Shown here one piece after another: positions 1 through 29,104 of a stretch of 64,000 bases of DNA. The translations under genes were made by a program, and so were the position numbers. Each line of letters begins with the position of its first letter. Position 1 is the stretch's first letter. The notes beneath the pieces are model-generated. The model was not told where the DNA came from. It was given only the letters and a program-made list of their open reading frames with translations, and did no database searches. The DNA is from Aurantiochytrium sp. KH105 (lineage: Eukaryota > Sar > Bigyra > Thraustochytrida > Thraustochytriidae): NCBI GenBank assembly GCA_003116975.1, contig BGKB01000100.1, positions 62,001 to 126,000 on the forward strand, read 5' to 3'.

Positions 1-1439
1 TCCTTGGAGCTTAGCACGTCGCATGTGCCGCTGAGGTGGAAGCTCACGGGGATGCGTGGCTCCACAACTTCCTTGAGCTCAAGACTTGTGGCGCCGTCCT
101 TCCTGCTCGCAATGTCTGCTTCGTCGCGAACGAGCTTGCCCCAGTGGGCCGCGCTTAGCCACATGGGGATCTGCTGATTGCGCTTGCGCTTGCTGGCTTT
201 GCGTCGCGAACTCTTGTCGCTGTTCGAGTCCTTCCCTGAAAGGGTTCCCCAGCTTCCGACAAGAAGCACGACATGCTTGACATTCCATTGTGTGTCACCT
301 TCGTGATCTTCGGTCGTGTACATGGGAAAGATGGGGCGCCAGCTCTTTTTACCCCCGAAGAAGCGAACTGTGCGAGCGAGAAGCCACGACAGAGGCGTGT
401 ACAAATGGTTGCCAACTATGGCCGTATCAAACATGGCTTCCGCGTACTTGCCGATCATGAACTGCCGCCCAAACACGCGGTGGAAGAGCTCGGCACCAAG
501 CTTGACCAACTTGACCTCGTCTTTGTTCTTGACCATAACGGCTCCGCTCAAGAGCGTGTGTCTGATGAAATCCCGTTTCTTCGCAGTTGAATTGATGTCA
601 AAGCGAAGCTTCGTAAGATTCAAAAGTTCCGTGCGCTCTTTGATCAGGACTTTGAGAATTCTCCAGATCCTGTCGATGCTTTCTTCATTTTTCAGCAGCA
701 GCGTCAGATCGGGAAGGTCCCCGATAAAGGTTTGAGCAGGCTGCAGGTTATATCCGAAAAAGACGGTGGACTCCATGAGACGATCAGTCGTGCCATTCAG
801 CGTGTACCCAACAACGCGGGCGTTGTCGTCCGCGATTTGCTTTACGATCGCTTTCGTCGTCGGGTCGCCAGACTTGATGCTTTTGCCACCACGAAGGACT
901 TCGCGAAGGAAACGCGCAAGAGTCGTCGGTTTGTGCTGGCTGCTTAACCACTGCAGCCTTACAGGCATGTCACTCAGCACGTACTGGTACGCGAGGAGAG
1001 TACTCAGCAGGGTCTTGCCCTCGCCTGGAGCCAGAGGCACCTGCAAGCCGGGTTGAGTCACGGCAAGTGGACCCAGGTCGCGATCCTCGAAGACGCGGTT
1101 TTCTTTCTCGCGTTCATGGCGCACGACGCCCGTCTCCAGAGCCGTCATGACGAGCTGCTGCGAGGGGCGAAGAGAAAGATCGTTCGCGCCGCGTTTCGTC
1201 TTGACGAAGTGCGCTAGACGAATGAATTGCTCGTTCTTGCGTATCTCCGCTTCGTCCAGCGAAGAACGGTTCGTGTCCCATTCCTTACACCCCTTCACCA
1301 GCTCATCCAGGTTCTCCTCCGTTATAACCACTTTGACATCGCCCTGGTGCCGCGCCACGGCAAGGGCCTCCGCTTGCCTCAGAGCGACAACACGCGCGCC
1401 CTCGTGGCGGGATGTAGCCATTTTCGATGCTCCGGCCAT
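1..1439 (-). CDS. SF2-type ATPase-like protein, left-unit paralogue, 3' end outside window
   Basis: The minus-strand frame is open from an ATG at 1439 to the left edge, about 479 codons without a stop. A TAG lies just upstream of the ATG (near 1467). The protein is colinear with residues of about 136-600 of the complete ATPase at complement 4723..10005. Shared blocks include LRPSQQ (Q-motif-like), a Walker A in PGEGKTLL, the motif II block VRDEADIAS and the motif III block FHLSGTCDVLS. It lacks the N-terminal Ala-Gln tract of the right-hand copy and begins where homology begins, which supports this start. The motifs are those of superfamily 2 ATPases; I do not recognise the family. The motif I to motif II spacing is about 290 residues, much longer than usual. 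It is transcribed away from the gene at 2544. It could be a helicase, a translocase or an inactive relative; the C-terminal lobe is not visible here. Confidence 0.75.
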   Translation of the reverse strand, partial: MAGASKMATSRHEGARVVALRQAEALAVARHQGDVKVVITEENLDELVKGCKEWDTNRSSLDEAEIRKNEQFIRLAHFVKTKRGANDLSLRPSQQLVMTALETGVVRHEREKENRVFEDRDLGPLAVTQPGLQVPLAPGEGKTLLSTLLAYQYVLSDMPVRLQWLSSQHKPTTLARFLREVLRGGKSIKSGDPTTKAIVKQIADDNARVVGYTLNGTTDRLMESTVFFGYNLQPAQTFIGDLPDLTLLLKNEESIDRIWRILKVLIKERTELLNLTKLRFDINSTAKKRDFIRHTLLSGAVMVKNKDEVKLVKLGAELFHRVFGRQFMIGKYAEAMFDTAIVGNHLYTPLSWLLARTVRFFGGKKSWRPIFPMYTTEDHEGDTQWNVKHVVLLVGSWGTLSGKDSNSDKSSRRKASKRKRNQQIPMWLSAAHWGKLVRDEADIASRKDGATSLELKEVVEPRIPVSFHLSGTCDVLSSK

Positions 1440-2543
1440 TGTTCTCTTGCGCTTGCTTGTTCACCTCTACTGGGTGCTTTGCCTTTGCTCCGCTTGCTTG
1501 CGTGGCGTCGGTCGGGTGCTCTTCGTGCTCGTCTTGCTTTGCTTTGTTCTTCGTCTCGGGGTTGCGGGTTTGCTGCGGCAGGCCGCGCGACGAGCGGAGA
1601 TGCCGCCTTCCTCCTTCATCCCGCCTTCTTCCACCATTTCGCGGCGCCGCTGAGAGTGCGAGTTTATACAGGTGAGATCGATTTGAGAGTGCTCTTTGCA
1701 AAATCGAGAGCGAGAGCGACTTGAGAGCGAGAGCGACTTGAGAGCGAGAGCGACTTGAGAGCGAGAGCGAGAGCACCCCTGCTGGCCCCGCAGCACTGCG
1801 GCCGCGCAGAGATTCTCACCGCGCAGGCTGCGCGCGAAGCGCCCCGCGTGACTCGTGTCCCAGCGGCCAGGTGACACGAGTCGCAGCAGACGGTGGCCAC
1901 GTGACATAAGCTTGCAAAACGTGACACGAAGACACTTCTTTACTTTACCAAGGCAGTTCGCAGCAGCATCGCCCGAACCGGCTACGCTACCGTGGCCACT
2001 GCAGCCAGCATCGGCAGCGGCGGCAGCGGCCGCGCCCTCAAGCAGAAGTCCAGGCCTACCCGAGCCAGGCGGACGCCGAGCGAGCCCGCCCAGTTCTGGA
2101 GCCAGCCCCCCGCCGTGGAGGACGGGAGCGGCAGCGGGTTCGGGCAGGAAACGGCGCTCTCGAGCGCTCTCGACTCGATTTGCTCCCGCGCCTCGCTCCC
2201 ACTCGACGCTCTGTTCTCGCATCTTGCTGAACAGGCCGCGCGTCTCCGCCTCCCAAAACCAGAACCGTGCGCGCGCGAGTCCGAGCGACCGGCGACGCGC
2301 GCTGCACTTACCGTGCGCAGCCCTGCGCCTGCGCCAGCAGCCCTCGCGAGGGCGGCCTCGGACCCGCTCGTGCACGCGCGCGCGCGCGAGAGAAGGGGAG
2401 AAAGATCGCATCGCGTGCGGCGGCATTGGGCGCGACCACAAAGAGACGCGCGGCGAGGCGACGCGAGGCGACGCGAGGCGACCGCGAGAGACGCGACGCA
2501 ACGCGAGACGAGGGAGAACGACCGACGCGACGGTCCTTTAAGA
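1440..2543. other. Divergent intergenic region of the left unit
   Basis: About 1.1 kb separates the two divergent start codons. It holds a 17-bp tandem repeat near the ATPase gene and GC-rich sequence with CGCGCG runs around 2370-2390. Short GCGAGGCGAC-type repeats lie around 2450-2500, just before the plus-strand gene. An open plus-strand frame upstream of 2544 has no ATG and looks like GC-rich read-through. The region presumably holds promoters for both genes; I cannot assign specific sites. Confidence 0.5.
1707..1774. repeat. 17-bp tandem repeat, about 4 copies
   Basis: The unit AGAGCGAGAGCGACTTG occurs three times perfectly (1707-1723, 1724-1740, 1741-1757). A fourth, degenerate copy follows. 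It lies about 270 bp upstream of the left ATPase start. The core GAGAGCG resembles the GGGAGCG core of the 21-bp array at the start of the right ATPase gene. Confidence 0.9.
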
Positions 2544-4127
2544 ATGTCGGCGCCCCTCGCGTCGTCCAAGTCGTGGGCGCCCATGAGCGCGAACGTCATC
2601 CGTGAGAAAGTCGAGCGCTTTGTTCGCGAGAATGGCAATGAAGATCTGGCAAAGATCTACAGCATCGATAAACTCGCCGAGTACGAGCAGGACTTGCGCG
2701 AGGAAAATGGAGTGAATTTTTTTTCCACATTGATGGAGAAGCTCTTTAAGAAAGTGTACTTCACCGACGGAAAGCACGACGAGGCCATGGTTCGCACCAA
2801 GTGGGATAGTGATTGCGAAAAGATGAGACTTGAGCTTATAAGGAAACTTGCAAATCCTTCTCACACGCCCAAAGCAGCTCCGTTCTTGCTGCTGGGTCAT
2901 CTAATGGAAAATTTCATTGCTCCGCAGGCCTCCGTGGACAACGACGAGAACCTTGTCATCAAGAGAATCTGGTCTCTCGTACGCAGTGGGACATGTCAAG
3001 TCTACACGTCTCATATCATCAGTTCTGGCACCGCGAATGGCGGTAGTAGTACCCCATCCCGAGACAACAGCACAAGGCGTTCCATGCAAAACGACGAAAT
3101 AAGCCCAGCTGCCAGAGCTTCGTTTCCTTCAGGTCTTCGGCAGCGCGAAGACCACGCTGTCGCGTCACAAGCTGACGCAGAGCGTTCGGGCTCTTTCGTG
3201 CCTCGGAACCTCGATTCTGAATACGATCAGCTGTCAGCTGACGCGTCGTCGTTTTCGGATGAGCATGAAGCGCCTTCGCCGCCGCCAAGCCAGTTGAACT
3301 CAAGGGAAAAGAGTAACTCCTTTAGCAGCACCCCGAGCACCTCGTCACTGCCCAATTCGGATCGAGCCAGATGGCCTGCTTCCTCATCTTCGTCCTTTTC
3401 CTCATCCTCATCCTCATCCTCGTCCTCGTCCTCATGTTCGCTATCGAAGCGCCCTCAACGGACGTTGTCTTCCGCATCGTTGAAAGACAAGAGTTCGTTG
3501 GCCTCGTCTTCGTCTCCCACACAGCGCACCAAGTCCGCTCCGCTGTCGATTACGACGATGCCTGTAGGAGTGCGGGCGAAGCCATCGTCAGTAGCAGCAG
3601 CTATTGGCGCTTCAACTGCAGAGCAAGCGACAGCGGACGCAACTGTGAAGGAAGAGACGCCGACATTGCGACGCGGAAATTCTTCCACGATCAGCGAGAT
3701 CAAGAAGACGATGAAGAAGGAAAAGAAGAAGAAGCTCCGTGCAGAGAAGTACATCGATCTAGAATTGCCCAGCGACGATAGTGACCTTGAAGAAGAAGAC
3801 GCAGGTAATGAAAAGAGCGCCGATGAGTCATCACAGTCGCTGAGTGACAAGACAACCACGTCTGAATCTCAACATTCACCTCGACGCGAGCGACCTTTGA
3901 AGAGGGAACGCGATGCTCCGAGCAGCTCGAACTCGAATTCTCCAGCTCCCATCGCCCAAAGCTCGTCTTCGTCGTCTTCCGGCGTCCCTGCTCGCACAAG
4001 ACTTTTGACTTCAGGAGGAACCCTTGAATCCTTTTGGGGAACAAAAAGGCCTCGAATCAAGACCGAGAAGCCCTCGTCTGAGAGACCAGGTAGTGCCAGC
4101 AATTTTATCGACCTCACCGAGGATTAA
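2544..4127 (+). CDS. Unrecognised protein with conserved N-terminal domain and SUMO-type motifs, left unit
   Basis: The protein has 527 residues from the first in-frame ATG. Residues of about 10-160 align with the N-terminus of the gene at 10976. Shared blocks are a start rich in W-x-P, a KVxxL helix, LRxE, FxKxYF, a KWxxDC block, DENLxxK and YxSHII. The first 60 residues resemble a DEK C-terminal-type helical domain; this is a weak resemblance. The remainder is Ser-rich and disordered, with a long Ser run near residues 280-300. The tail carries two SUMO-interaction-like motifs, YIDLELPSDDSDLEEED and the C-terminal FIDLTED. It also has psi-K-x-E sites (VKEE, LKRE, IKTE). It is divergent from an SF2-type ATPase, an arrangement repeated 8.5 kb away. 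A chromatin or nuclear-body adaptor is possible but unproven. Confidence 0.75.
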   Translation: MSAPLASSKSWAPMSANVIREKVERFVRENGNEDLAKIYSIDKLAEYEQDLREENGVNFFSTLMEKLFKKVYFTDGKHDEAMVRTKWDSDCEKMRLELIRKLANPSHTPKAAPFLLLGHLMENFIAPQASVDNDENLVIKRIWSLVRSGTCQVYTSHIISSGTANGGSSTPSRDNSTRRSMQNDEISPAARASFPSGLRQREDHAVASQADAERSGSFVPRNLDSEYDQLSADASSFSDEHEAPSPPPSQLNSREKSNSFSSTPSTSSLPNSDRARWPASSSSSFSSSSSSSSSSSSCSLSKRPQRTLSSASLKDKSSLASSSSPTQRTKSAPLSITTMPVGVRAKPSSVAAAIGASTAEQATADATVKEETPTLRRGNSSTISEIKKTMKKEKKKKLRAEKYIDLELPSDDSDLEEEDAGNEKSADESSQSLSDKTTTSESQHSPRRERPLKRERDAPSSSNSNSPAPIAQSSSSSSSGVPARTRLLTSGGTLESFWGTKRPRIKTEKPSSERPGSASNFIDLTED

Positions 4128-4722
4128 TCGAATTGCATGAAAGGAAAACTTGTAAACTCCCAAAAGAATATTGAATGACTGTGAATTGATGCGATGTAGC
4201 GGGAAACAGAAATGTCGTGAGCAGACACTAGCGCCCTCAAAAGTAATGAGATCAATCTGGCGTCCATGGGAAGACTTCTGTAGTCGACGAACATTCAATC
4301 TCGCTTGCCACTTGTCCGTACGACATCAATGAAAATTTGATGCATAATGCTCACAGTAAGAGATTGTGTGTCCAAAGGATCTGTAAATATTTGGCCTTTC
4401 CTGACTCATTGAGAGTATCTTTTGACAGGGGGAAGAGCATCGAAGTCCACCAGCGAAATATATTGCCTTGGCAGGCCCGATTCTATCCTAGTGAGCCTAG
4501 CATATCTGCTTTTATCAACTCCAAAACGACGGTAGAGTGTTTCTCCTACACCATAACGGCAGTTAGGACTACTGTGTCACATAATGGAAAGAATTCAATG
4601 AACATTACTTTCAGAGAAACGGTGCTTGATGAATCGGGCGAAGGATCCATTGAATAAACCAGGAAACGGTCGTGACGCAAGTGAATATTCGATGTTTGGG
4701 CGTGAAATTTTTTGGTCTGACT
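4128..4722. other. Convergent intergenic region
   Basis: This is AT-richer sequence between the 3' ends of the genes at 2544-4127 and complement 4723-10005. An open plus-strand frame with an ATG at 4340 ends at 4657. Its composition and lack of motifs do not support a gene. I see no strong repeat here. Confidence 0.5.
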
Positions 4723-6423
4723 TTAAGATTGGTTAAGAGGAAGGTCAAGTGCCTGACAAGCATCCTGCAGAATATCGTGTGCCCGGTTCTGCTGCTCGAC
4801 ATTGTCCGTTTCGAGATCCAGAACGAGAAGATTGGATCCAACGGTTTCGGCAGAGACACCGGAAGCTGACGTTGTCGAGGGACCCTCTGCAGGCCTGTTT
4901 GAAGCGGTGTGCACATGACGATGAAGTTTGACAGTGTAAGGAGCGGTTGGTGGCCCTTTGCGCAAGAAGAATGAACACGCGGGCGATGGATAGGGGAGTT
5001 TTTCGCGAAGAATTGCCTCGTGCAAACTCGTGTAGACTTTGTGTCGCACCGTATCCTGCTCGCCGTCGACGCGCACCTGCTTCAAAGCGTCGAGAAGCTT
5101 GCGCTGTTGCTCAGAAAGTCCTGATTCCTGTGCACACACCTTGCACTGATCTCTGCTGGGTGCAGTGCTGCACATGCTTGAAGAGGGCAAAGCGCGTCTG
5201 CAGGAAGCGCACCAGAAATGCTCGCTTCCGTGCGTTGCACAGAAACGAGAAGCTCCTTCAGCACGCATCTCTTGGCAGCCTCCTAGACAACAGGTTTTCT
5301 TCCGCTGCTTCTCCGCTTTGAGCAGCTTCGCGTATGACCCCTGAGAGCTGTGCGCTCGCCGAAAGGTTCTTTGCCCGTCTGAACGATTTGGGTTGCGATT
5401 CATGCGTAGGCGGGTGTTTCCCGGTTCCTCGTCCTCCACTCGCTGACATGCGGAGCACATTGTTTCGCGAGATGTGGGTCTTGGGTGAGCGCTAAATATG
5501 AAGGGAGTGCCGTTCTCGTTGCTCGCTTTCCGAAGCCACTGATTGGAGGATACTGGCGCATATCCCGCAGTGAGTCTTTTGCTCCCAATGGGCTTGAGGT
5601 TTTCATTGAAAAGCCAAAGGATCAGTTGCTGCTCGCATCGGGCACATTGGTCGTCGCGGAGAAGCCTGTTGAACACCCGTGGGTCTTCTGACGGATTTCC
5701 GACCAGCTGCAGAAACTCGTCGTCGCGGAGAGGCTTCTTCGCGCAGACGAAACAGAAAAGCTTGAAGTTCTTGGACCTTCGAGTTCCCTGCGCGATAGAG
5801 AAGTCGATTTCCACGTTTCCAGATGAGGAAACATGCTTCTTTTCAACCTTGAAACCGCAGCGCTTGCCATCTGTGTCCACGAGATACATGCCCTGCATGC
5901 AGGCCCTCGGGCTCCGACGTAAAGTGTCCATGAGAAAGTCAGGCACTTGGTCCGTGAAGGATGCAGAGGTGAAGAAGGCTTCCTTGCTACAAACGGAGCA
6001 CTTTGGCCAATTTAAATTGGCTGAGGCACGAACGCTCTCATCCAGTCCATGTGAGACCTGCGACGCGTCGCTTTGGATTGTTTGAGTGCTTTGCCTTTGC
6101 GATCGGCTGCGTCTGGTCCTTGGTCGACGTTGTTGCTCGTCATCAGGAACCCCATCGCCTTCATAGTCAGAATCGCTGTTGCTCTCGTCGGACGAATCGT
6201 CAGAGTCCCCGGCACCATTCTCGTTGACATGCTGTCGACGACCACGTCGAGAAAGGGAAGGAGGCGCGGCATGTGTTACATTGTCTGCGCTCCCATGAGC
6301 ACCATGGGAAGAAGAAGCATCGCGGGTGGGGGCACTGGTATCGTGGCCGCCATTTTGGACACTAGGACTGCTGCGGAGCATATCGACATTTCGGCCCGGG
6401 GTTGCTTCACTACCAGCCCCGCG

Positions 6424-6459
<36 letters not shown>

Positions 6460-9400
6460 TCTGTTCCTGTTCCTGTTCCTGTTGCTAATGCCGCTGTCGC
6501 CAAAGGCGCCATCGTTATAGTGATCCGAAGCGGGATGCGGGTCTAGCCGGGAAGCTTGACCACTGCTCTGCGCGCCAGAGCTCTCGGCGTCGTTTTCGCT
6601 TGCTTCCAACAGAGATGCGTCGTCGCCTGAGGCTCTCTCACTCGAGACCCTGAGCTCGTTGCTCTCCGATCTCCCCGATCTCCCCGTGTGAACGCCTTCG
6701 GCGCAAAGACGAATGTTAGCTTGCGTGGAATTGTTGGCTTGCGTATCAACAACCTCAACAACGTCAACTTCCATCTTCTGTGGACGTGTCGGTGCATTAG
6801 GCGTGTCGCACTCCATCGCAACTACGGGGTTGTCGTCTTGATCATCTTCCCCATCCAAGACTCTCTCGCGCACTGGAGGAGGACCTGCAGGACTATGGTG
6901 TGACAAACGCCGCCGCGCATTGGTGGAAGCAATTGCCGGCAAGGGGCGTGGCGCCTTGCGCTTTGGAGACGGCGATGATGCAGATTCCGAGTCACTGCTG
7001 TCGTGCGACATACCAACGTCGGAAAACTCCTCAAAGGAACGGCGAGTGCTGGACTTGTCAAAGCAGTCCTCGTACGTCTTCAGAGTGATGTCTGCGCACG
7101 GATCGTTCGGTCCACACTCGTATAAGGTGGACGATGGCGTTGACTCGAAGTTCTGAGGCTTACCACATTGCATGCACTTAGAAAACCCGGATTGAAGTAG
7201 CGTCGCAATGTCCTCCTCGACAATGCCATTCTTGAACAGCGCCTTTGCTGCGAGAAGCTTGTGTTCCTCGTCATCCCGAATGATTAGGAACTTTGCGAGA
7301 TGCCTTTTGGGAATACCAGTGCCACAGAGGTAGTACTGCACAAGATGGTCAAGCGCATCGTCGACACTTCCTTCTAATCGACCTTTGTGCGTCTCGAGGA
7401 TCTTCCTGATCATATTCGTGTCATGGTGGTTACGGGTGACGCGCCCAAGGACCTGAATGAACTGATTCATCTTCACACCCTGCGTACGGAGAACCATGAC
7501 GAACTGCTGGAGAGGAAAGTTGAAGCCACGAATCTTTTTCATGAGGACAACGAGAAGGTTTGCGGCACCTTCTCTGAGGATAGTCTCGACATTTCTGGGG
7601 TCGATAGGCTCAAAGTCACCCGTATCGGGATTCCAACGCTCGTGAATGTTCATCAGATCGATGATGGGGATCAAAAACTGCTTGAGTTTGGGCCTTTCAG
7701 CTTCCGGCAAACTCACCCATCGCTCAGCGTTACCCGGCCCCGTGACAATATAGCCCGAGTAGAGTCCATCACCGGCTGGATTGCAGCAATGGTAGCATTC
7801 CACGACCCTCGCAGACGCGTTTGGGCCAGGCGGACTCTTTTTCCGGGCAATTTTCTTAAAATCTTGCTTGAAGGTATCGACGGCGGCCTTGCTTGAGAAG
7901 GAAGCTGTTCCGGCAAACGGCAAGTACTCCATCATAGCCTTGTAGTGACTTCGCTCCTTCGCAGAGCTCGCCGCAGCCTCCTCGGAGATCTTACCAGCCC
8001 GGGCTTGAACCGTGTAAGAGAACACGGACATTCCAGAAAAGAAGTCACCAACGTCACTTTTGTACTTGCCTCCAAGGCGGCGTTTCCCGTCCGCATCGTA
8101 CAAGATGATGGAGGGCAGTGATGATGGAGGATTTTGAATGCTTACCGACTGGCCGAGACCGTATCCAAACTTGTGTCGAGCACCAAGAATGTTGCGAGCT
8201 ACGCGTTGCTTGGTCGACAACACGTCGCACGTGCCGCTAAAGTGAAACGAAACAGGGAAGCAAGGCTCAACGGTCGTCGCCAACGTCCTGGCCATCTGTC
8301 GCTCAGCTTTGCTGGCGATGTCGGCTTCGTCGCGGATTAGCTTGCCCCAATGCGCCCTGGAGAGCCACGTCGGCGTCTCGCTCTCACTCTGCTCTTGCCC
8401 TCTTCTGGTCCCTGCGAGGGTTTTCCAATTCCCTACAAGAAGAACTGCGTTGTAGGCCTGGGACGGTTCTGTGCAGGACGAGTTCTCGTAGCCCAGCAAG
8501 GGCATCAAGGTACGCCACTGATCTTTCCCGCCATGAAAGCTGACGGTGCGCGAGAGCAGCCAGGAAAATGGCGTGTACAGGTGGTCGCCAATGATGACTG
8601 TCTCAAACAGGGCTGGCGCGTACTCCCCGATCCTGAATGTTTTCCCAAAGACGCTCGTGAAGAGCTCAGCTCCGAGCTTAACAATGTGAACCTCGTCGCC
8701 CTGTTTGTAGGCCACAGCTCCGCTCAGCATGGTCTCCTTAATGAGAGTCATTAACTCAAAGTCGGTGTCTTCGGGCCGAACACCAGTCCTTTCCTCGATG
8801 ATGCCTTGAATGATGCTCCAAACCTTGTCAAGGCTATCCGGGTCCTCGAGCAGCTTGGTAAGATCCGGAAGTTCCTCAAGGAAGGTCTCCGCAGGCTGGC
8901 GATGGTAACCAAAGACGACTGCAGACTCAAAGAGACGGATAGATTTCTTGCCGCTCTTCTTGTCGCGAACCACGTACCCTGAAACGTCGGCATTGTCGCA
9001 GGCAATCTGATCCAGGATCGACTGTTCGGCTGGGACGTCAGAGCTGAACGCTCGCGTCAATACGCCATGGAGAAAGCTGGCCAGAGTCCACGCTTGCTTT
9101 TTGCATTGCAGCCAGTCGCACTGTACGGGCATCTGGCCCAGCACCGTGAGAAGCGCAATGATGGTGCAAAGGAGAGTTTTTCCTTCTCCTGTGGCGATGC
9201 GGCACTGCAAGCCCGGTTGCGTCAACGCAAGAGGCCCAAGATCTCGTTCTTCGAGCCGAAACTCTTCTTGGTCATTGCCTAGGGCATTCTGGATCCTTTC
9301 AACCTGGTGCTCCACCCTCCCGCTCTGGAGTGCGCCGACAACCAGCTGCTGAGAGTGGCGTAGCTGTAGAGCGGACGAGCCACGGTGACTCGTAACGTAC

Positions 9401-10005
9401 TTGATGACAGCAATGTGCTGTTCGTTCTTTTTCATCTCGAATTTCTTCAAGGGGCGTTCCTTGCCCCACGGCTCAAACTCCATCGCGTCCAGTTGCTCGG
9501 ACAGTATCACCTTGGCGATCCCCTCGTCCACCATGGCGTGATTCAGAGCCGCGCGGCTTTTCACGGACAGGATTTCGCAGTTGTTCTCGGACATCTTGGA
9601 GTTGCTTCGAAATGCGTCGAAGTCTTGGTCTCGTGCTTGAGCTTGTGCTTGAGCTTGTGCTTGTGCTTGAGCTTGTGCTTGTGCTTGAGCTTGAGCTTGT
9701 GCTTGTGCTTGTGCTGGTGCTTGCTTTGGAGGCTTGCTCGCTTTGATTTCGGGTTTGCTGCTGCTGCTGCGCACCCGCTGCCTCCCGGTGCCTCCTTTCG
9801 CTGCCCTCCCGCTCCTCCGATCGTTATTACCCATCCGGATCGCTCTCGTCAGGGGGGGGTTGGAAGGGCAATCAAAAGAGTTGGGAGCGATCTCATCGAA
9901 AGTGGGAGCGTTCTCATCGGAAATGGGAGCACACTCATCGGGATCGGTAGTGCTCTCGTCGAGATTGGGAGCGATCTCATCGAAAGTGGGAGCGCTCGCT
10001 CTCAT
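4723..10005 (-). CDS. SF2-type ATPase-like protein with Cys-rich C-terminus, complete right-unit paralogue
   Basis: The longest frame encodes 1760 residues. Order of elements: degenerate heptads APxxDEx (residues 1-45), an Ala-Gln repeat (about 95-123), LRHSQQ (Q-motif-like, about 225), Walker A ATGEGKTLL (about 270), IRDEADI (about 557), FSGTCD (about 588) and QVLGRVTR as motif VI (about 848). A disordered region with a Ser run near 1190 follows, then a Cys-rich tail (about 1330-1700) with several CxxC pairs. The motif set fits superfamily 2 ATPases, with a SecA-like GEGKT. The motif I-II gap is about 285 residues. No named family is recognised. The start is uncertain: ATGs exist at 10005, 9834 and 9594. 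The paralogue at the left edge begins at the point matching 9594, so the repeat-rich 137 residues may be leader. The tail contains CLGGCx(11)CxxHG, like the repeats of the zinc-finger gene at 17010. Confidence 0.8.
6423..6458. repeat. CTG/CAG trinucleotide run
   Basis: About eleven CTG triplets inside the right ATPase gene read as polyserine on the minus strand, near residue 1190. This is a low-complexity linker and a possible length polymorphism. Confidence 0.9.
9635..9722. repeat. 6-bp repeat array encoding Ala-Gln
   Basis: A GCTTG[A/T] hexamer array on the plus strand gives a (Gln-Ala)n tract in the minus-strand ATPase frame. The left-edge paralogue has no counterpart, so the array was probably acquired or expanded after duplication. 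Confidence 0.85.
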
Positions 10006-10011
10006 CGGGAT
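9882..10011. repeat. 21-bp tandem repeat, 6 copies
   Basis: Five copies of exactly 21 bp begin at 9882, 9903, 9924, 9945 and 9966, and a 25-bp sixth copy starts at 9987. The first and fifth copies are identical (TGGGAGCGATCTCATCGAAAG with 21 bases, core TGGGAGCG). The phase of 21 keeps the ATPase frame open and yields A-P-x-x-D-E-x heptads. It could be coding sequence, leader or promoter. Confidence 0.9.
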
Positions 10012-10975
10012 CGGGAGTGCGAACCGCAGAAGGAAAGGCCTGAGTGCATTGGCCGAACGTGCGTGGGACTTCTTTCATCGAGAGCAAGCTGGCGAGCCCG
10101 TGCCTTTGAGAATGCCCTTCCTTCCCCCTCCACTTCCTCGGTCGGCGTCGTCATCGTCATCGTCGTCTGAATGCATTCGAGAGCGCTCGGTACTTCCTTC
10201 ATCGGGAGCAAGTCCAGAGCAAGTCGAGACAAGGTCGAGCGAGAGCAAGCCCAGCTAGAGCGTCCATCCACATCCGACGGACCAATCAGCATCGCGCGAG
10301 CGCACGGCATGCTCGAGCCGCGTGCTCGCAAGCGCCATCAGGAGCTCCCGAAGGTGCTCGCTCGCTGCCTGCCTGACGCCTCGAACCTCGCGACTCGCAG
10401 CTCGAGCTCGCGCCCTGGAGCTCGCGCCCAAGCAGGAGGCGGCCGCGGCTGGTCTTGGATTCCTGGCGCCGCAGATCCCTCCCGAGAGCGAGGCCGCGCG
10501 CGGGCGAGAGCGCGCGCGAGCGGACGCGCACGCCGGGAGCGCGCTCGCACGCGACGGCGCGCGACGCACTGCAGAGGCCCGCGGCGCGGGGCCGGCCTCG
10601 GTCTGTCTGTTGGCCGGCGGGAGGAGGGAGCGGACCGCGCGTGGCGACGCGAGGCGAAGACCACAGGACGCGGCGGCTCGCGTCGCGCTCGTGCGGCGCG
10701 CTCGCTGACTTGCTCGTGCGGCGCGCTCGCTGACTTGCTCGTGCGGCGCGCTCGCTGACTTGCTCGCTCGCTTGGTGCTGCTTCGCCCTCGAGGCGATCG
10801 ACGACGAAAGAGGCTCGTCTGCCTGCTCGTGCGACTGAGCATCGGGCATCTGGGCAAGCGCGAGCCAGGGATCCACGACCACGCGAGCTCGAAGCGCTCG
10901 GTGTCTCGCGCCTACGCTGTCCACCCGGCTCGTCGCACGGCTGCGGACGTGGACTTTCACGTCAACACGACCAAG
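10006..10975. other. Divergent intergenic region of the right unit
   Basis: About 970 bp of very GC-rich DNA separates the right ATPase and its divergent partner. Scattered GGGAGCAAG/GAGAGCAAG motifs around 10080-10260 echo the 21-bp array. Three 25-bp direct repeats lie near the partner gene. Open frames exist on both strands, but their Arg/Ala-rich translations lack conserved features. It is probably a bidirectional promoter region. Confidence 0.5.
10690..10764. repeat. 25-bp tandem repeat, 3 copies
   Basis: A unit beginning CGTGCGGCGCGCTCGCTGAC and ending TTGCT is repeated three times perfectly (10690, 10715, 10740). It lies about 210 bp upstream of the ATG at 10976. Confidence 0.9.
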
Positions 10976-12154
10976 ATGACAACGTCTTTGACACCGTCGC
11001 ACGACCCCAGGACCTGGCGACCCCTTGATGATGAAGCCATCCACGCAAAGGTGACCGTCCTGCTGGAGGAGGTCCCCGAGTTGGCTTGGATCTGGGACGC
11101 CCCAACTCTCGTCGAGATAGAGATGGAGTTGCGTAAGAAGGAAACGAGGCCCTTTTCTAAAATTTTGGAACACTGCTTTGAGAAAAATTACTATCCCCGA
11201 GGGCATCACGTTCCCGAAGTTATACGCGCTAAATGGGCAAAAGATTGTAGAACCCTGGGCACCCAACTTTCGAGGCGATTTAAGCGCAGGGTTTCACGAA
11301 ACTTTGCAGCACAATTTATTGTCATGCGTTGTGCCTTGCATGATCGTCTCTCGCCTCATCCAACCATCTCCATGGATGAAAATCTTGCCGTCAAGAAGCT
11401 TTGGTGGCATATTTGCGCGCCCACGAGTGGGATCTATCGCTCGCATATTATTAATCATGGCATGGCAATACCTTCGTACGGCAAAATAACAAAGCGACCA
11501 CAACAGGAAAGTGACGAGGGGAAGAGTGTTACGATCGATCTCTCGGGCAGTCCAGACCCGGACGTAGCTGTATGTAAATCACCTGTATCATCATCAGCCA
11601 AATGCAGCAAGACGAGGCGTCAAGCGCCTGCAGTTCGCTCGCAAAATGATGTAAAAACTGAATATAAAAGACGCGACGAGTCGCCAAGCGAACTCGATTC
11701 AAACGGCTGTGGCTCTTCTTCGCGTTCGCTGGGAAGAACTCGATCTGCGGAGCCACTATCTGAGAAGAAGCCACAACGCTCGGCACGGATGGAGAAAGAC
11801 CGTGCTCAACCCAAGGTCCTGCCTTGCAAGCAGGAGATTGATGTTTTTGACAAGAGTCGGTTCGATGACAGTAGCGACGATGAAGCTTTTATCGGTAGCA
11901 AGTTGGATGGACCAGGTTGTTCAAAGGCCTCGACTACATTGTCCTCTTCGGCAGCCGGCCGCACGAGAACTCCGTTGCTCTCGGCGCGATCGGCGTCTCC
12001 AGGGTCAGGAAAAGGAATTTTGAAGTTAGAATTTCGTCGGAGTGCAGCGTCGTCTGCGCCGAGTCGGGGCGTCATCAAGCTCGAGCACAAGCCATTCGCG
12101 AAGCGGCGCAAAGTGTTGCCTGGCATCTCGGATCTCTCCGAAGCCTTCATTTAA
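10976..12154 (+). CDS. Unrecognised protein with conserved N-terminal domain and SUMO-type motifs, right unit
   Basis: The protein has 392 residues from the first in-frame ATG. Residues of about 10-165 are paralogous to the gene at 2544: an HAKV helix, MELRKKE, FSKILEHCFEKNYY, RAKWAKDC, DENLAVKKLWW and YRSHIINHG. The rest is disordered, basic and Ser-rich. It carries a SUMO-interaction-like motif (VTIDLSGSPD) and psi-K-x-E sites (VKTE, LKLE, IKLE). The two paralogues therefore keep the same motif classes while their tails have diverged. It is transcribed away from the complete SF2-type ATPase, and the MDR gene follows on the same strand. The function is unknown. The conserved pairing suggests that it works with the ATPase, but that is inference. 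Confidence 0.75.
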   Translation: MTTSLTPSHDPRTWRPLDDEAIHAKVTVLLEEVPELAWIWDAPTLVEIEMELRKKETRPFSKILEHCFEKNYYPRGHHVPEVIRAKWAKDCRTLGTQLSRRFKRRVSRNFAAQFIVMRCALHDRLSPHPTISMDENLAVKKLWWHICAPTSGIYRSHIINHGMAIPSYGKITKRPQQESDEGKSVTIDLSGSPDPDVAVCKSPVSSSAKCSKTRRQAPAVRSQNDVKTEYKRRDESPSELDSNGCGSSSRSLGRTRSAEPLSEKKPQRSARMEKDRAQPKVLPCKQEIDVFDKSRFDDSSDDEAFIGSKLDGPGCSKASTTLSSSAAGRTRTPLLSARSASPGSGKGILKLEFRRSAASSAPSRGVIKLEHKPFAKRRKVLPGISDLSEAFI

Positions 12155-12522
12155 AATTTGTTACTCTAAATGTTATGTTTGCCAAATGATCATTTGTTGG
12201 TGCAGGCCTACTACCAGCGGTTGCGGTTTGCTGCGGCGCCAACCAAATGGGCGAAATCTTTTCAACAACCATTTTGTATACTTGTTCCTTGTTCCTGGAG
12301 CCAGCTGCAGAACATTACATTCTCAAGTCCCCGCGAGATCCCGGAAAAGAGAGAGAGAGAGAGATTCCAGCTAGCTGGGCAAATCAGGAACTCGATCCTC
12401 GTAGCGCTTTCGGAGAGCGACTCCCACACGCGAGCTGTGAGCGAGCCCGAGCTACTCCAAAGACGAGGCGTGAGCTTGCTCGGAAGCGCGAGCCTGGACC
12501 AGAGCTTGAGCGAGGCAGAACG
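12155..12522. other. Intergenic region upstream of the MDR gene
   Basis: This is 368 bp between two plus-strand genes. The first half is AT-rich and the second has a GA dinucleotide run (about 12349-12364) and GC-rich leader sequence. I see no separate gene. Confidence 0.5.
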
Positions 12523-13707
12523 ATGGCGTCGGGTAGTACTTCTTCGGCCGCAGCCGACACGATGCAAGCGTGCTTCTACGCCAAGTTCGGCGGGCCCGAG
12601 GTGGACCAGGTGGGCAAAGTGCCACGACCCAAGGCGCAAGATCTTGCAGAGGGCCAGGTCCTGCTAGAAATGCGTGCATCTTCTTTAAACCCGGCAGACT
12701 ACAAGCAACGCAGTGGAAAGCACGCGGCCATCCTGTCCATCAAGCTGCCTCAGGTGTACGGCTTTGACTTTTGTGGCAAGGTGGTCGCTTCCAAAAGCAC
12801 GGAATGGGTTGCTGGCGACGAAGTCTTTGGCATGTGCAAGGGCCTTCGTCGAGGCGGTCTTGCCGAGTTCTTCATCGTGGATGGTGACATTTGCGTGCGG
12901 AGGCCACCAAACATGCCGAGTTTCGACGCCGCAGGCCTCCCACTCGTGGGCATCACCGTGCTTAAAGCGTTTTCTAAATGCAGAGTGAAACCCGCTGCTC
13001 AACGGAGCTCCTCGCAAAAAGCGCCGAGAATCCTTGTTCTCGGAGGAGCAGGCGGTGTCGGAACTGTGGCAATTCAGCTTGCCAAAGGGTACTATGGCGC
13101 TAGTTTCGTGGCAACAACAGCCTCGGCCGGCGAGAAGTCAGATCTCGTTCGCGAGCTGGGCGCAGACCAGGTCGTGAACTACCGTGACGAGAAGTTTTGG
13201 CAAGTTCTGGCGTCATCGTCCCAGGACGATCTCTTTGATGCGATTCTTGATTGTACCGGCGAGGCGGCCAAGTGCCCCTCTCTGCTACGCGATGGCGGCG
13301 GTCTCGTTAGCATTGCAGCTTCGCCGACTGTTGCTGCTTTGCGCGAGTTCATCGAGGAGTCAGACACGCGAAGCTTTCATAGAATCACCTTTGGCGTCGA
13401 TGGGTTTCTGCACAGTAGTCTCGGAGGAGTAATCTTCGATCGTCTTACGGGCGCCACCTCTCTCGAGTCCAAGTGTCGTAAACGAGGCGGCGGGACCTTT
13501 GCGCACATTATTGGAACAGGCCATCGCGAGTACGTTGAAATCCTTGCAGACGAGTACAATGCAGGTCGTCTGCGCACAGTCATTGACCACGTCTATCCAT
13601 TGCGGGATGGCATCAAAGCGATCGAACGTATAGAGAGCGGGCGTGCCAAGGGTAAAGTCATCATCTCCATCGCAGACGAAGAGGCGAGTACCACAACGGC
13701 CATCTAG
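12523..13707 (+). CDS. Zinc-free MDR oxidoreductase, quinone reductase-like
   Basis: The protein has 394 residues from an ATG at 12523. The N-terminal GroES-like half includes MQACFYAKFGGPEV, SSLNPADYKQRSG and YGFDFCGKVV. A Rossmann half carries the nucleotide-binding motif VLGGAGGVGTVAIQLAK, followed by ELGADQVVNYRDE and DCTGEA. The C-terminal block ends GRAKGKVIISI, typical of the medium-chain dehydrogenase/reductase family. Catalytic and structural zinc Cys residues are missing, which fits the NADPH:quinone reductase or RTN4IP1-like branches. Open frame continues upstream of the chosen ATG but is Arg-rich and not conserved-looking. The substrate cannot be predicted. No clear targeting peptide is seen, so it is probably cytosolic. 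Confidence 0.85.
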   Translation: MASGSTSSAAADTMQACFYAKFGGPEVDQVGKVPRPKAQDLAEGQVLLEMRASSLNPADYKQRSGKHAAILSIKLPQVYGFDFCGKVVASKSTEWVAGDEVFGMCKGLRRGGLAEFFIVDGDICVRRPPNMPSFDAAGLPLVGITVLKAFSKCRVKPAAQRSSSQKAPRILVLGGAGGVGTVAIQLAKGYYGASFVATTASAGEKSDLVRELGADQVVNYRDEKFWQVLASSSQDDLFDAILDCTGEAAKCPSLLRDGGGLVSIAASPTVAALREFIEESDTRSFHRITFGVDGFLHSSLGGVIFDRLTGATSLESKCRKRGGGTFAHIIGTGHREYVEILADEYNAGRLRTVIDHVYPLRDGIKAIERIESGRAKGKVIISIADEEASTTTAI

Positions 13708-14379
13708 GAACTGCGCAAGTCGCTGTCGATGCAACACAGCTCCATCATCCGCGGGCGAAACATTCCGGAGTCGGTCCAGGCCTATAAAAAAGTAAAACTC
13801 ATTTGGTATCATCACTTCTTTCTTGCGCGCACGTTTCGAAGAAATGCTTCGGGCAAGTGAAAGTAAGAAAGGACAAACTTTGCTTTTTTCCGGGCAGGTC
13901 AATCCACGCAAGAGATCGAAGACCACCTCCACGCAAGAGTTCGAAGACCACCTGGTAGGTCTATCTCTGACTTCTCTTTCTTTTTTTCGGCTGTGTGGCT
14001 GTCAGGAGTGTGTTTTTTAGAATAGTATGGATGGATGGTTGCTTGGTTAGGTTTGTTCGGGTTAGGTTAGCGTTTGTGCAAGGCCAAGACCAATCCGTCG
14101 GCGGCGCAGACCACGCAACGACTGTCGAAGATCTCGCGAGCGCAGCTAGTCTGCGACAAGAGCCTTCTTGCCGCGCACTCGCACGCCCGAGCTCGCGGCC
14201 TTGCGAGCTCTCCCCCACCCCCGCGCCCGCTCTCCTCGCGATACCGTTCGTTCGCCGAGGGGCGCAAGCAATTTGCAGCGAGCGAGTGGCGAGCAGCAAC
14301 CGCGGACCTCGCCCGGGACGCGCAGCCAGAATCTAAGGCCGCAGGAGTCGCGTAGCGCGGCAGCATAAGCTAGCTAGTT

Positions 14380-15779: not shown

Positions 15780-17009
15780 TAAATCCATTCTCTCTTTCTC
15801 GTTTTTCTTTTTTATTGCTTTCCTTTTCTCTCTTCCTTTCCTTTCGCAAGATCGCGTCTGATTAGGCCAGGCCACGCCAGGCCAGACCTGATCAGCTTGC
15901 CTGCCTGCCTGCCTGCCTGTTGGCCTGGCCGTGCTGTGCAGTATCTACCACTATCGCACACTAATGAATCTACTCCGCGAAAGAAGCTGTGCAAATTACC
16001 ACGATTACTTGCCTGCCTAGTAGTTGGAGTAGGGTCTAGCTTCTGGCCGATCGGAGGTTGCATTTTCACCCCGCCGCCAAGCTCGCCGAAGCGTAGCCCC
16101 AGCTCTCGCGTCCCGAGAGCAACAGCCCCTCACCTTGCCTTCATCGCTATCGCGAAGGGGTTTCGTTGGCAACAGTCAACTCCGGCCAGAATGCTCTCTG
16201 TACCCGTCACGATCTCTTGCCAACTGTCTCCGTCTCCGAGGCGGGCGCGGTCGCAGCGTCACGTTGCGCTGTGTTGCACGAGCCTTGTAGGGTTGCCTAC
16301 TCTGCAGCTAGCTGGCCTGTCGTGTGTGAAATGGGCGCTGCAGCCGCATGTCCATCGCACCGCCGGCGGTGTCCATACACGCGTGCACGTGCGCACACAC
16401 AACATCATCACATCACCTAGAAGGTTGACCGTCTCCGTCCCGTTGACCTCTCGATTGCCTTTGATGCGGCCGAAGCCGGTGCCTGTGCGGCGCGAACGTC
16501 TGTCTCTCGGATTGGAGCTGTCTCTGCGTTGCGTACGCACCGAAATCGAGCGAGATACGCCCGCGACCGCGAGCCGAGCCCCTCGCGTTTGCCCTTTTTT
16601 TTTACATTGAAGTTGGGACATTGTAATTCGCGCACGTGACATGACCGACCCAGCGTCTGCAGCTATCCCGGTCGGCCCAAGCATCAAGCATCTTCTGCGC
16701 AGGGTCGCGGCGCGCAGGGCGCTGCAGCCGCGACGTAAGGCTCGTGCGCCGGCCGGCCTGCGCGGCGCTGGCGGCAGTGCGGCCAGGAGCCTGGTTTGCC
16801 AGCACCACCTCCAGCAAGCTGGAGCGTTGGCACGCAACAGCAAAACCCGTGTGTGCTGCCACGCGTGCTGTGCGCGGTGCGGCAGGCAGTGGCGAGCAGA
16901 GTCGTGTCGTAGGCAGGAAGGCGAGCAGCGCAGGCATCAGCAGCATATCGCAAACACGGGCTCGACGTGCGGCGGCAGCAGCGGCTGCGGCAGGAGCAGC
17001 AGCGAGGCC
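15780..17009. other. Intergenic region between SerRS and the zinc-finger gene
   Basis: About 1.2 kb. A pyrimidine-rich 3' stretch follows SerRS (15785-15845), then GCCAGGCC repeats and a CTGC tetranucleotide run (about 15897-15918). An open frame from 15897 to 16610 lacks an ATG at its start and is compositionally non-coding. An ATG at 16641 is in frame with the zinc-finger gene, so 16641-17009 may be an N-terminal extension. Confidence 0.5.
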
Positions 17010-18128
17010 ATGGCGCCCACGGCGCGCTGCAGCGAGAAGAAGTCCTTCACAACGTGCTCGGAGACCGGGTGTGCCAAGCTCGCGAGACGCGGCGGCAAGT
17101 GCGTAAGGCATGGCGGCGGGTACAGGTGCAAGGCTGAGGGCTGCACGCACAGCACAGCGGGGCCGAACAAGCTTTGCGTCTCGCACGGCGGCGGACGCAA
17201 GTGTACGCACCCAACGGGTTGCCGTAAGACCGCGAGGACGTCCTTGGGCCTCTGCTCAACGCATGGTGGAAAGCCGCGCTGCTCAGAACCCGGCTGCACG
17301 CGTTTTGCGCGTCTCAAATCCAAGTGCAATCGCCATGGAGGCAAATACTTTTGCTCGCATCCCTCTGGTTGCCGTAGGACGTGCGATGGGCCCATGGACC
17401 TATGCAGAGCTCATGGAGGCGGCCGTAATTGCGTAGTCAAAAATTGCACCCATGCCGCAAAGCAAGGAGGTCGCTGCTTTGCGCATGGCGGCGGCGCGCG
17501 ATGCACTGTGCCTTCGTGCCACAAGGTTCCAAAGATGCAAGGCATGTGCATGTCGCACTATCGCTTGCACTCAAAAGACGAAACGAGTCGCGCTCCTGAC
17601 AGAACCCTCGCTCCACAGAATGAAGCGCCCGCCTCTCTTTACAACAATGAGCCTGTTAACGACAACTTGAGCACGCTCAATGAACGCGGTATATCAGACT
17701 TGGCGTTCAAAATCGCTGTTGCGGCCGCACTCGCCAAGAGACACGCTTTTGCGCGTGATCTCACCACGCCTCGGGAACACGACCTTGATTGTGATTCTTC
17801 CAGCTCACATACGGATTCTGGATCGTCTACTCCCTCGATTTCTTCGCGGACGTCCATACCGCTATTGGCGCAAGCGCCAGTATGGGCGCCGTGCTCGCTA
17901 CGCTCGCAGGTCTCGCAATCTTCTCCGGGAATAACGCTCCCGCAAGTTACCCCAGTCCCGATTCTTCGGCCGCACATTTCGCAAGAGCCGTCATCAAATC
18001 CAAGTCTTCTGATGCTACAGGCGCGAGCAGAACCTATTTCCTCGTCCCAGCTTCCTTTGCCATTCTCGCAAAACTCAACTTTCTTAGTTTCGTCCATCCC
18101 TCTTGCGTCATCAATTCCAGACGCGTGA
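17010..18128 (+). CDS. WRKY19-like zinc-finger repeat protein
   Basis: The protein has 372 residues from the ATG at 17010. Residues of about 5-185 hold seven tandem Cys/His units of the form C-x4/5-C-x8-10-C-x2-H-G-G, such as GCAKLARRGGKCVRHGG. The seventh ends CMSHYRLH. This repeat type is known from plant WRKY19-like and many oomycete/stramenopile proteins, with likely nucleic-acid or protein binding. The C-terminal half is Ser/Pro-rich and disordered. An upstream in-frame ATG at 16641 would add 123 Arg/Ala-rich residues. I prefer 17010 because the first finger starts soon after it. A regulatory nuclear protein is plausible. Confidence 0.8.
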   Translation: MAPTARCSEKKSFTTCSETGCAKLARRGGKCVRHGGGYRCKAEGCTHSTAGPNKLCVSHGGGRKCTHPTGCRKTARTSLGLCSTHGGKPRCSEPGCTRFARLKSKCNRHGGKYFCSHPSGCRRTCDGPMDLCRAHGGGRNCVVKNCTHAAKQGGRCFAHGGGARCTVPSCHKVPKMQGMCMSHYRLHSKDETSRAPDRTLAPQNEAPASLYNNEPVNDNLSTLNERGISDLAFKIAVAAALAKRHAFARDLTTPREHDLDCDSSSSHTDSGSSTPSISSRTSIPLLAQAPVWAPCSLRSQVSQSSPGITLPQVTPVPILRPHISQEPSSNPSLLMLQARAEPISSSQLPLPFSQNSTFLVSSIPLASSIPDA

Positions 18129-28178: not shown

Positions 28179-29104
28179 CTTCTCCGAGCAACCGCAGATA
28201 TAGATCGAGACTTGAAGCCGCCTCGTCCTTGGCCAAAGGGCCACGGTTTGCTTGTACACGTGCGCCGAGCGACCATGGAATCCCTGCGGAACGTTTGAAG
28301 AACTGCTGCTTCGTTGTAGTCATTAGAGTCATTGCCAAGGTTGGACGCCCCGGAACGACGCAGGAGAGATGGATGCCTGATCGCGGTAGGCCTACTCGCT
28401 TTCAGACGTAGATGAGCTTGTGAGCTAAGATTCACAGACCCCTTCATCGTGCTTCTTTGTCCAAGCCACCAGCCGCAAACTCCGAAATAGGCTAATGCCA
28501 TGGTTGTTTCCTCAAGCGAGAAACTTGAAGCATCGACGCATGGCGAACTTGATCCACGCCCCTCACTCTCCACAATTGCTTCACCGGCCGTGCGGCAAGC
28601 ATGGTAAAGGCCTATAGCACTACAAACTCTCTGTCGAGGCGAGGCGAGGCGAGGCAAGGTCTTCCTTTCATTCATCACTTACTCACTCACTCGTTCATTC
28701 ATTCCTCACTTTCCAGCGGAGGTGGCTCGAGGTGGTTGTTCAACTTTGGCAGCGCGCTACGAGTCGGGCAGGCTGTTGCTACGAGCCCGTCGAGAAGCGC
28801 AGAGAGAGAGCCCGAGCAAGCAAGGCAAACCAAGTTCGCGGCAGGTCGAGCGCGGCACGCGGGGCGAGCCGGACGACGGCGGCGAGGCGAGGCGCTCGGC
28901 ACGGCGCGCGGCGAGGCTTCTCCCCCGCGCAGCGCACGGTAGCGCGAAGTTCCGCGCGCAGGGGCGAGGCGAGGCGAGGCGATCTGCCATTTTTTGGTGG
29001 CTGCGAAGCCGCAGCGGCGCGAGCGCGAGCGCGAGCGCGAGACGGACGAGGAGAGCAAGCTAGGCGCGGCGAGAGCGACTGCGACAGACAGCGACAGCGG
29101 CAAG
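28179..29104. other. Divergent intergenic region
   Basis: 926 bp between the TPR gene and ABCF1. It contains GGCGA repeats near 28630-28655 and 28963-28981 and ACTCACTCACTC near 28680. A GAGCGC repeat (about 29018-29040) lies in the probable ABCF1 leader. No gene is supported on either strand. Confidence 0.5.

Follow-up and report, generated by a model that had tools for sequence, protein, structure and literature searches.

A tandem array of divergent gene pairs in Aurantiochytrium sp. KH105 that may encode a helicase-like motor and a SUMO-wired adaptor

Why are a long helicase-like gene and a shorter gene, neither of a recognisable family, repeated back to back in a thraustochytrid genome? 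The question is raised by a 64,000-nucleotide stretch of Aurantiochytrium sp. KH105 (GenBank assembly GCA_003116975.1, contig BGKB01000100.1, positions 62,001 to 126,000 of the forward strand), the whole of which is referred to here as the window. A first-pass annotation, made from the letters alone, had described two divergent gene pairs about 8.5 kb apart and had proposed that they are tandem copies of a two-gene unit whose members act as a functional couple. We show that both pairs are present where they had been placed and with the spacing given, and that they belong to an array of three tandem units, each consisting of a long gene resembling superfamily 2 (SF2) helicases that is divergent (head-to-head) from a shorter partner gene. 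The window starts within the second unit (unit 1) and covers units 1 and 2, while a third (unit 0) lies upstream of it on the same contig (C100). The genes and the regions between them are as follows, with positions in the window unless C100 is named.

C100:47484-52334, minus strand: unit 0 helicase, open frame
C100:54381-55541, plus strand: unit 0 partner, open frame
1..1439 (C100:58571-63439), minus strand: unit 1 helicase-like gene, open frame of 1,622 aa whole; the window holds its N-terminal 479 codons (P0001)
1440..2543, no strand: unit 1 divergent intergenic region, 1,104 bp
2544..4127 (C100:64544-66127), plus strand: unit 1 partner gene (P0002), 527 aa from ATG, with an N-terminal domain and a serine-rich tail
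4723..10005 (C100:66723-72005), minus strand: unit 2 helicase-like gene (P0003), 1,760 aa from the first ATG
10006..10975, no strand: unit 2 divergent intergenic region, 970 bp
10976..12154 (C100:72976-74154), plus strand: unit 2 partner gene (P0004), 392 aa from the annotated ATG

The truncation of the unit 1 helicase is due solely to the window edge, and the true start of the unit 2 helicase is uncertain because the first ATG of its allelic open frame corresponds to residue 58. The same six genes, all as open frames, are found on an allelic contig (C107). As C100 and C107 are collinear at the array and 93-94% identical across long matches, we treat them as two haplotypes. The eukaryotic assembly (76 Mb, 367 contigs) was searched with P0001, P0003, P0004 and the unit 0 partner at a threshold of E 0.001; the search program gives counts that are lower bounds for repeats and large families. 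Each haplotype holds three helicases and three partners, all three pairs head-to-head at a single locus, and no further copies of either family were detected elsewhere in the assembly. This supports the earlier suggestion of a couple that has been retained together. The paralogy on which that suggestion was based is also real, with 44% identity over 489 columns for P0001 and P0003 (E 2e-121) and 30% over 174 columns for P0002 and P0004 (E 1e-24), the latter being confined to the N-terminal domain. A 714-aa frame between units 0 and 1 (C100:56140-58284; allelic omega, the ratio of amino-acid to synonymous divergence between alleles, 0.22) lies outside the repeated unit; its N-terminal 361 codons and the whole of its 647-aa C107 allele had no Pfam match.

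What kind of protein does the long gene encode? The six helicase frames (1,616-1,760 aa) have five invariant stretches, GEGKT, DEAD, SGT, IRGFNFP and QVLGRVTRN, which occur in the order of SF2 motifs I, II, III, V and VI and which we take to be these motifs. In the unit 1 helicase the first three are found at residues 139-143, 439-442 and 470-472, respectively. Their positions in the unit 2 helicase, together with two further features of this protein, are given here.

9175..9189, minus strand: motif I (GEGKT), where a profile including the unit 2 sequence aligned with E. coli SecA
8320..8331, minus strand: motif II (DEAD), with motif III (SGT) about 30 codons further; the profile aligned here to the DEAH stretch of E. 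coli RapA
7429..7569, minus strand: motifs V-VI (IRGFNFP...QVLGRVTRN), where the profile aligned with RecG and with the window's own DEAD-box helicase
5134..6000, minus strand: cysteine-rich C-terminal tail with six CxxC motifs
4990..5211, minus strand: approximate counterpart of unit 1 codons ~1460-1545, the part most divergent between units 0 and 1

All six CxxC pairs of the tail are invariant in the six sequences, and the tail probably binds zinc. Comparison of the core profile by hhalign gave E 0.0008 (probability 25%) with SecA at motif I, E 0.004 (9%) with RecG and E 0.026 (1.9%) with the window's DEAD-box helicase at motifs V-VI, and E 0.16 (0.4%) with RapA at motifs II-III, the last of which, taken alone, does not surpass the spoT control (E 0.19, 0.3%). 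Weak matches to SecA_DEAD (PF07517; E 0.004-0.014, 15-17 bits against a Pfam cut-off of 24.6) were observed in five of six helicase sequences scanned, namely P0001 (16.4 bits, E 0.0057) and four cores from units 0 and 1, each of 835 residues; Helicase_C matched three of these four cores at 12-13 bits against a cut-off of 23.5. In the SecA alignment, the motif I stretch APGEGKTLLSTLLAY is paired with RTGEGKTLTATLPAY of the E. coli protein. Identity with SecA was nevertheless rejected: in SecA the preprotein domain (PPXD) is inserted between motifs II and III, whereas hardly 30 residues separate DEAD from SGT in the unit helicases, which also differ in having the cysteine-rich tail. A further difference from SecA-like SF2 proteins is the presence of ~300 residues between motifs I and II.

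The partner proteins have in common an N-terminal domain of ~165 residues (approximately residues 1-166 in unit 1) that is present in all three paralogues and predicted, with low confidence, to be all-helical (AlphaFold predicted local distance difference test (pLDDT) score of 50 from a two-row alignment). Identity between units 1 and 2 is 30% within this domain, and falls to 24-28% among the three units across the aligned codons of the whole proteins. The tails that follow are marked by motifs for interaction with SUMO.

3750..3767, plus strand: internal SUMO-interacting motif YIDLEL of the unit 1 partner (YIDLDL in the C107 allele)
4104..4124, plus strand: C-terminal SUMO-interacting motif FIDLTED of the unit 1 partner, by motif pattern
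11531..11545, plus strand: SUMO-interacting motif TIDLS of the unit 2 partner, by motif pattern
12125..12151, plus strand: C-terminal ISDLSEAFI of the unit 2 partner, which aligns with the C-terminal IDLT of the other partners, is degenerate and fails the strict motif

The unit 0 and 1 partners end in VIDLT or FIDLTED and the unit 2 partner in a degenerate ISDLS; none of 50,000 shuffles of the unit 1 tail placed [VIF]IDLT in the last eight residues. The tails hold four SUMO-interacting motifs of the IDL type against 0.01 expected (1, 2 and 1 in units 0, 1 and 2 on both haplotypes), a type absent from the 9,976 residues of ten other frames of the region. They also hold seven copies of the sumoylation consensus [VIL]KxE in 804 residues against 0.42 expected, a number reached in none of 20,000 shuffles, and the excess over the seven copies in the ten other frames has a p of 3e-5. 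By tail, the counts for units 0, 1 and 2 are 1, 3 and 3 on C100 and 1, 3 and 2 on C107. One control frame (28994-31951) is possibly no gene, and the result is the same without it; the partner N-terminal domains showed no excess of SUMO motifs. The description of the unit 1 partner as a SUMO-motif protein therefore holds for the SUMO-interacting motifs and sumoylation consensus of the tail but does not extend to a SUMO-like domain, as no Pfam family matched P0002 or P0004 at E <=1 and no Rad60-SLD was found in the three partner domains at E <=10. From these motifs the tails would be able both to carry and to bind SUMO.

Does this genome have a SUMO pathway with which such tails could work? There were 25 Rad60-SLD matches in the assembly, and the six that were translated and read are presumably two ubiquitin fusions, three other proteins with ubiquitin-like or SUMO-like domains and one SUMO. 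This SUMO-type gene (approximately C18:164070-164670) was read by eye as two exons, which were left unjoined, and its C-terminal Gly-Gly end is located in the second. This indicates that the genome uses introns, though each of the six array genes is one uninterrupted reading frame. SP-RING (zf-MIZ) exceeded its cut-off on contigs C72 and C149, in two of four cases among the matches listed, and on this evidence the genome appears to hold the matching SUMO machinery. A known protein with the same combination is PML, a SUMO-wired scaffold of nuclear bodies. Like PML-type scaffolds, the partner holds sumoylation consensus and SUMO-interacting motifs in one protein; it differs in having no RING or TRIM match in Pfam, in its N-terminal domain and in that its gene adjoins a motor gene.

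The units are not uniform copies, and it is in this respect that the description as tandem copies requires amendment: the units are repeated, three times, but with anciently diverged partners and, in units 0 and 1, recently homogenised helicases. These two helicases are 95.0% (C100) and 94.6% (C107) identical in DNA, and their synonymous divergence (dS) of 0.08-0.10 is no higher than that between alleles (0.09-0.11), while the partners of the same two units have 27-28% protein identity and a saturated dS of ~3. Similarity of the unit 0 and 1 DNA ends ~10 bp past the helicase stop and ~450-500 bp upstream of the helicase ATG. Among 157 informative sites, 76 of the 81 up to codon 1,220 group the sequences by haplotype and 71 of the 76 from codon 1,269 group them by unit, giving a mosaic score of 147/157 against a maximum of 105 across 2,000 shuffles; five additional sites support the third possible grouping, the cross grouping. 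Differences between the unit 0 and 1 helicases concentrate at codons ~1460-1545. The simplest account of this pattern would be that, within each haplotype, gene conversion has recently passed motor sequence from one unit to its neighbour, with the partner excluded. Conversion would be confined to the motor, because codons to ~1,220 group by haplotype and the last ~350 by unit. The unit 0 divergent intergenic region contains a 269-bp repeat present 2.8 times (C100:52727-53499), which overlaps the upstream end of the converted tract.

How strongly are the two genes of each unit constrained? For units 0, 1 and 2, respectively, allelic omega is 0.96, 0.71 and 0.27 for whole partners, 0.96, 0.86 and 0.06 for the partner domains, 0.34, 0.48 and 0.19 for whole helicases and 0.17, 0.32 and 0.11 for the helicase cores. 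Seven neighbouring genes have values of 0.01-0.22. The eighth, a zinc-type alcohol dehydrogenase (ADH) gene beside unit 2 (12247-13707), has the highest value of the eight compared (0.40); the initial pool of controls excluded it on account of the difference between its two alleles at the 5' end. The excess of amino-acid over synonymous codon changes relative to neighbours was strong for partners 0 and 1 (p 2e-9 and 1e-8; 7e-8 and 6e-7 with ADH in the pool), while that of the unit 2 partner was weak without ADH (p 0.025) and not distinct with it (p 0.14). In comparisons with unit 2 that are uncorrected for multiple tests, the partner domain differs in both unit 0 (p 0.0004) and unit 1 (p 0.002), as does the unit 1 helicase core (p 0.005), and the helicase C-terminal parts of units 0 and 1 differ weakly (p 0.035 and 0.044). 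Seven noncoding stretches in or beside the array had 44 frame-breaking indels per 391 substitutions, a rate about equal to that without the repeat-bearing unit 0 region (29 per 241). At this rate 6.2 and 7.2 frame-breaking indels would be expected between the alleles of partners 0 and 1, from 55 and 64 substitutions, and 5.2 in the unit 2 partner; all three had none. The lack of such indels indicates that all three partners are maintained as coding genes, two of which are changing fast. As no omega exceeds 1, positive selection is not established. From these rates unit 2 looks like a constrained, housekeeping-like pair and units 0 and 1 like fast-changing pairs.

Searches for relatives agree with the earlier failure to recognise either family, as Pfam, NCBIfam, PHROGs, PADLOC and PDB gave no family above cut-off or beyond chance for either protein. 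None of the four sequences compared with the PADLOC anti-phage models matched at E <=1, and PDB sequence searches gave nothing meaningful. An EcoR124_C match of the unit 0 partner (E 0.019, below cut-off, in one of the three partner domains) was set aside as chance, as were weak matches to Ribosomal_S21, cpYpsA, EntC, PHROG, mediator-subunit and decoration-protein entries. No relatives were found in viral contigs by four short-peptide pattern scans, in contigs of prokaryotic genomes by one such scan, or in phages by plain tblastn of the helicase core. The viral, prokaryotic and phage collections searched contain no eukaryotic genomes, and members of the family in other thraustochytrids may well have been annotated as hypothetical proteins. 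No description of such an array was found in the partial literature searched, a negative that is no proof of novelty because of this partial coverage.

What, then, might such a unit do? We propose that each encodes a two-part nuclear machine in which an SF2 motor and a SUMO-wired adaptor act as a couple, a reading that we are about equally prepared to accept or to doubt. The long gene would specify an ATP-driven helicase or translocase in which a large insertion separates motif I from motif II and whose cysteine-rich tail probably binds zinc. The product of the short gene would be an adaptor, helical in its N-terminal domain, with a tail that looks flexible and could both carry and bind SUMO. 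In the nucleus, the adaptor might concentrate the motor, through physical contact, on SUMO-marked nucleic-acid or chromatin sites as its substrate, and the motor tail may meet its own partner or target; the purpose served might be maintenance, silencing or defence. Gene conversion would keep the unit 0 and 1 motors alike while the motor tail and adaptor keep the identity of the unit. We regard a motor-adaptor couple as the best account because all copies are paired, each pair has a divergent intergenic region in common and the partners carry SUMO signals; a homogenised motor with a unit-specific tail and adaptor is what would be expected if the tail and adaptor carry specificity.

Several observations weigh against this interpretation. 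The hhalign probabilities are low throughout, from 25% (SecA), 9% (RecG) and 1.9% (DEAD-box helicase) to 0.4% (RapA) and 0.3% (spoT control). All Pfam support for a helicase fold is below cut-off, and the SecA_DEAD matches come from units 0 and 1 alone, full-length P0003 being unmatched. AlphaFold models of the helicase core (AlphaFold2, pLDDT 31, from window sequences in a two-row alignment) and of the partner domain (pLDDT 50) are uninformative on fold, including on the two RecA-like folds that an SF2 core should have. The SUMO patterns, although canonical, were set after the partners had been read, and the p-values are flattering for this reason, yet the excess itself remains large. Segment trees match the conversion mosaic only in part, their ingroup splits having modest supports (47 and 80, and 36 and 79), and the alleles of unit 1 form no clade in the tree of the C-terminal segment. 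The mosaic may also reflect an assembly or polishing artefact making neighbouring copies alike on each contig, or the gradient along the motor may reflect merely where similarity permits conversion. Finally, the rate of the unit 0 helicase core is no different from that of unit 2 (p 0.34).

This last result also fits another possibility, namely that a helicase of general genome maintenance or transcription was duplicated locally together with a cofactor regulated by SUMO, and that the fast change of units 0 and 1 reflects relaxed constraint alone. Unit 2, with its constrained core and partner domain (omega of 0.11 and 0.06), could alone supply an essential function, and the omega near 1 in the other partners is as relaxation predicts. 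However, units 0 and 1 are old (partner dS ~3), their four partner alleles are intact with no frame-breaking indels against ~13 expected, and constraint persists in their helicase cores (omega 0.17 and 0.32). We consider this explanation rather unlikely, if a serious contender. A third possibility is that the orphan proteins, a long helicase-like gene adjoining a small partner, are former replication genes of a domesticated mobile or viral element. This seems very improbable given a single locus in the genome at E 0.001, the absence of relatives from the viral contigs (four pattern scans) and phages (tblastn of the core), and surroundings in which 18 of 28 frames have a Pfam match at E 0.01 (two of the 18 only below cut-off) and the neighbours include seryl-tRNA synthetase (SerRS), topoisomerase I and Pol I A49.

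Fast change in intact partners could alternatively arise from conflict, with units 0 and 1 recognising an opponent that keeps changing (a virus or mobile element, for example) via the adaptor and motor tail while sharing a homogenised motor. The partner omega values of 0.96 and 0.71, their excess over neighbours (p 2e-9 and 1e-8, or 7e-8 and 6e-7 with ADH) and the unit-specific motor tail at codons ~1460-1545 are consistent with this. Plant nucleotide-binding leucine-rich repeat (NLR) sensor-executor pairs are documented as head-to-head, with correlated diversity statistics of the two halves (PMC6709784). The array genes loosely resemble these pairs in being divergently transcribed and kept together (PMC6709784), but they are different proteins from a different kingdom with no NLR, TIR or LRR match in Pfam. 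Moreover, no omega exceeds 1, copy number is equal on both haplotypes, none of the four sequences matched PADLOC and no opponent is known; we judge conflict unlikely. Its most elaborate form, a previously undescribed eukaryotic recognition system in which adaptors and the matching motor end diversify under conflict around a conversion-homogenised motor, beside a conserved founder unit, we regard as similarly doubtful.

The surroundings of the array contain some further features. Beyond ADH, whose 5' end differs between haplotypes, C107 carries a stretch of ~4.7 kb that is absent from C100 at window ~13,926-14,030 and is possibly a hemizygous insertion; within it lies a FEN1/XPG-type nuclease frame with XPG_N and XPG_I (C107:103837-106050). 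The protein at window 16641-18128 has five WRKY19-type zinc-finger matches, and a PfaD-type polyunsaturated fatty acid (PUFA) synthase is present in the assembly (four of ten matches over cut-off, on four contigs). We take these two kinds of protein to be thraustochytrid markers.

If the motor-adaptor couple is real, eukaryotic nuclear biology would gain an orphan SF2 motor that has a SUMO-wired adaptor of its own. Since each cell has three paired units, with two motors homogenised and the adaptors free to differ, the question of which part of the motor specifies its partner is directly testable, and motor codons 1460-1545 provide a concrete candidate for this role.

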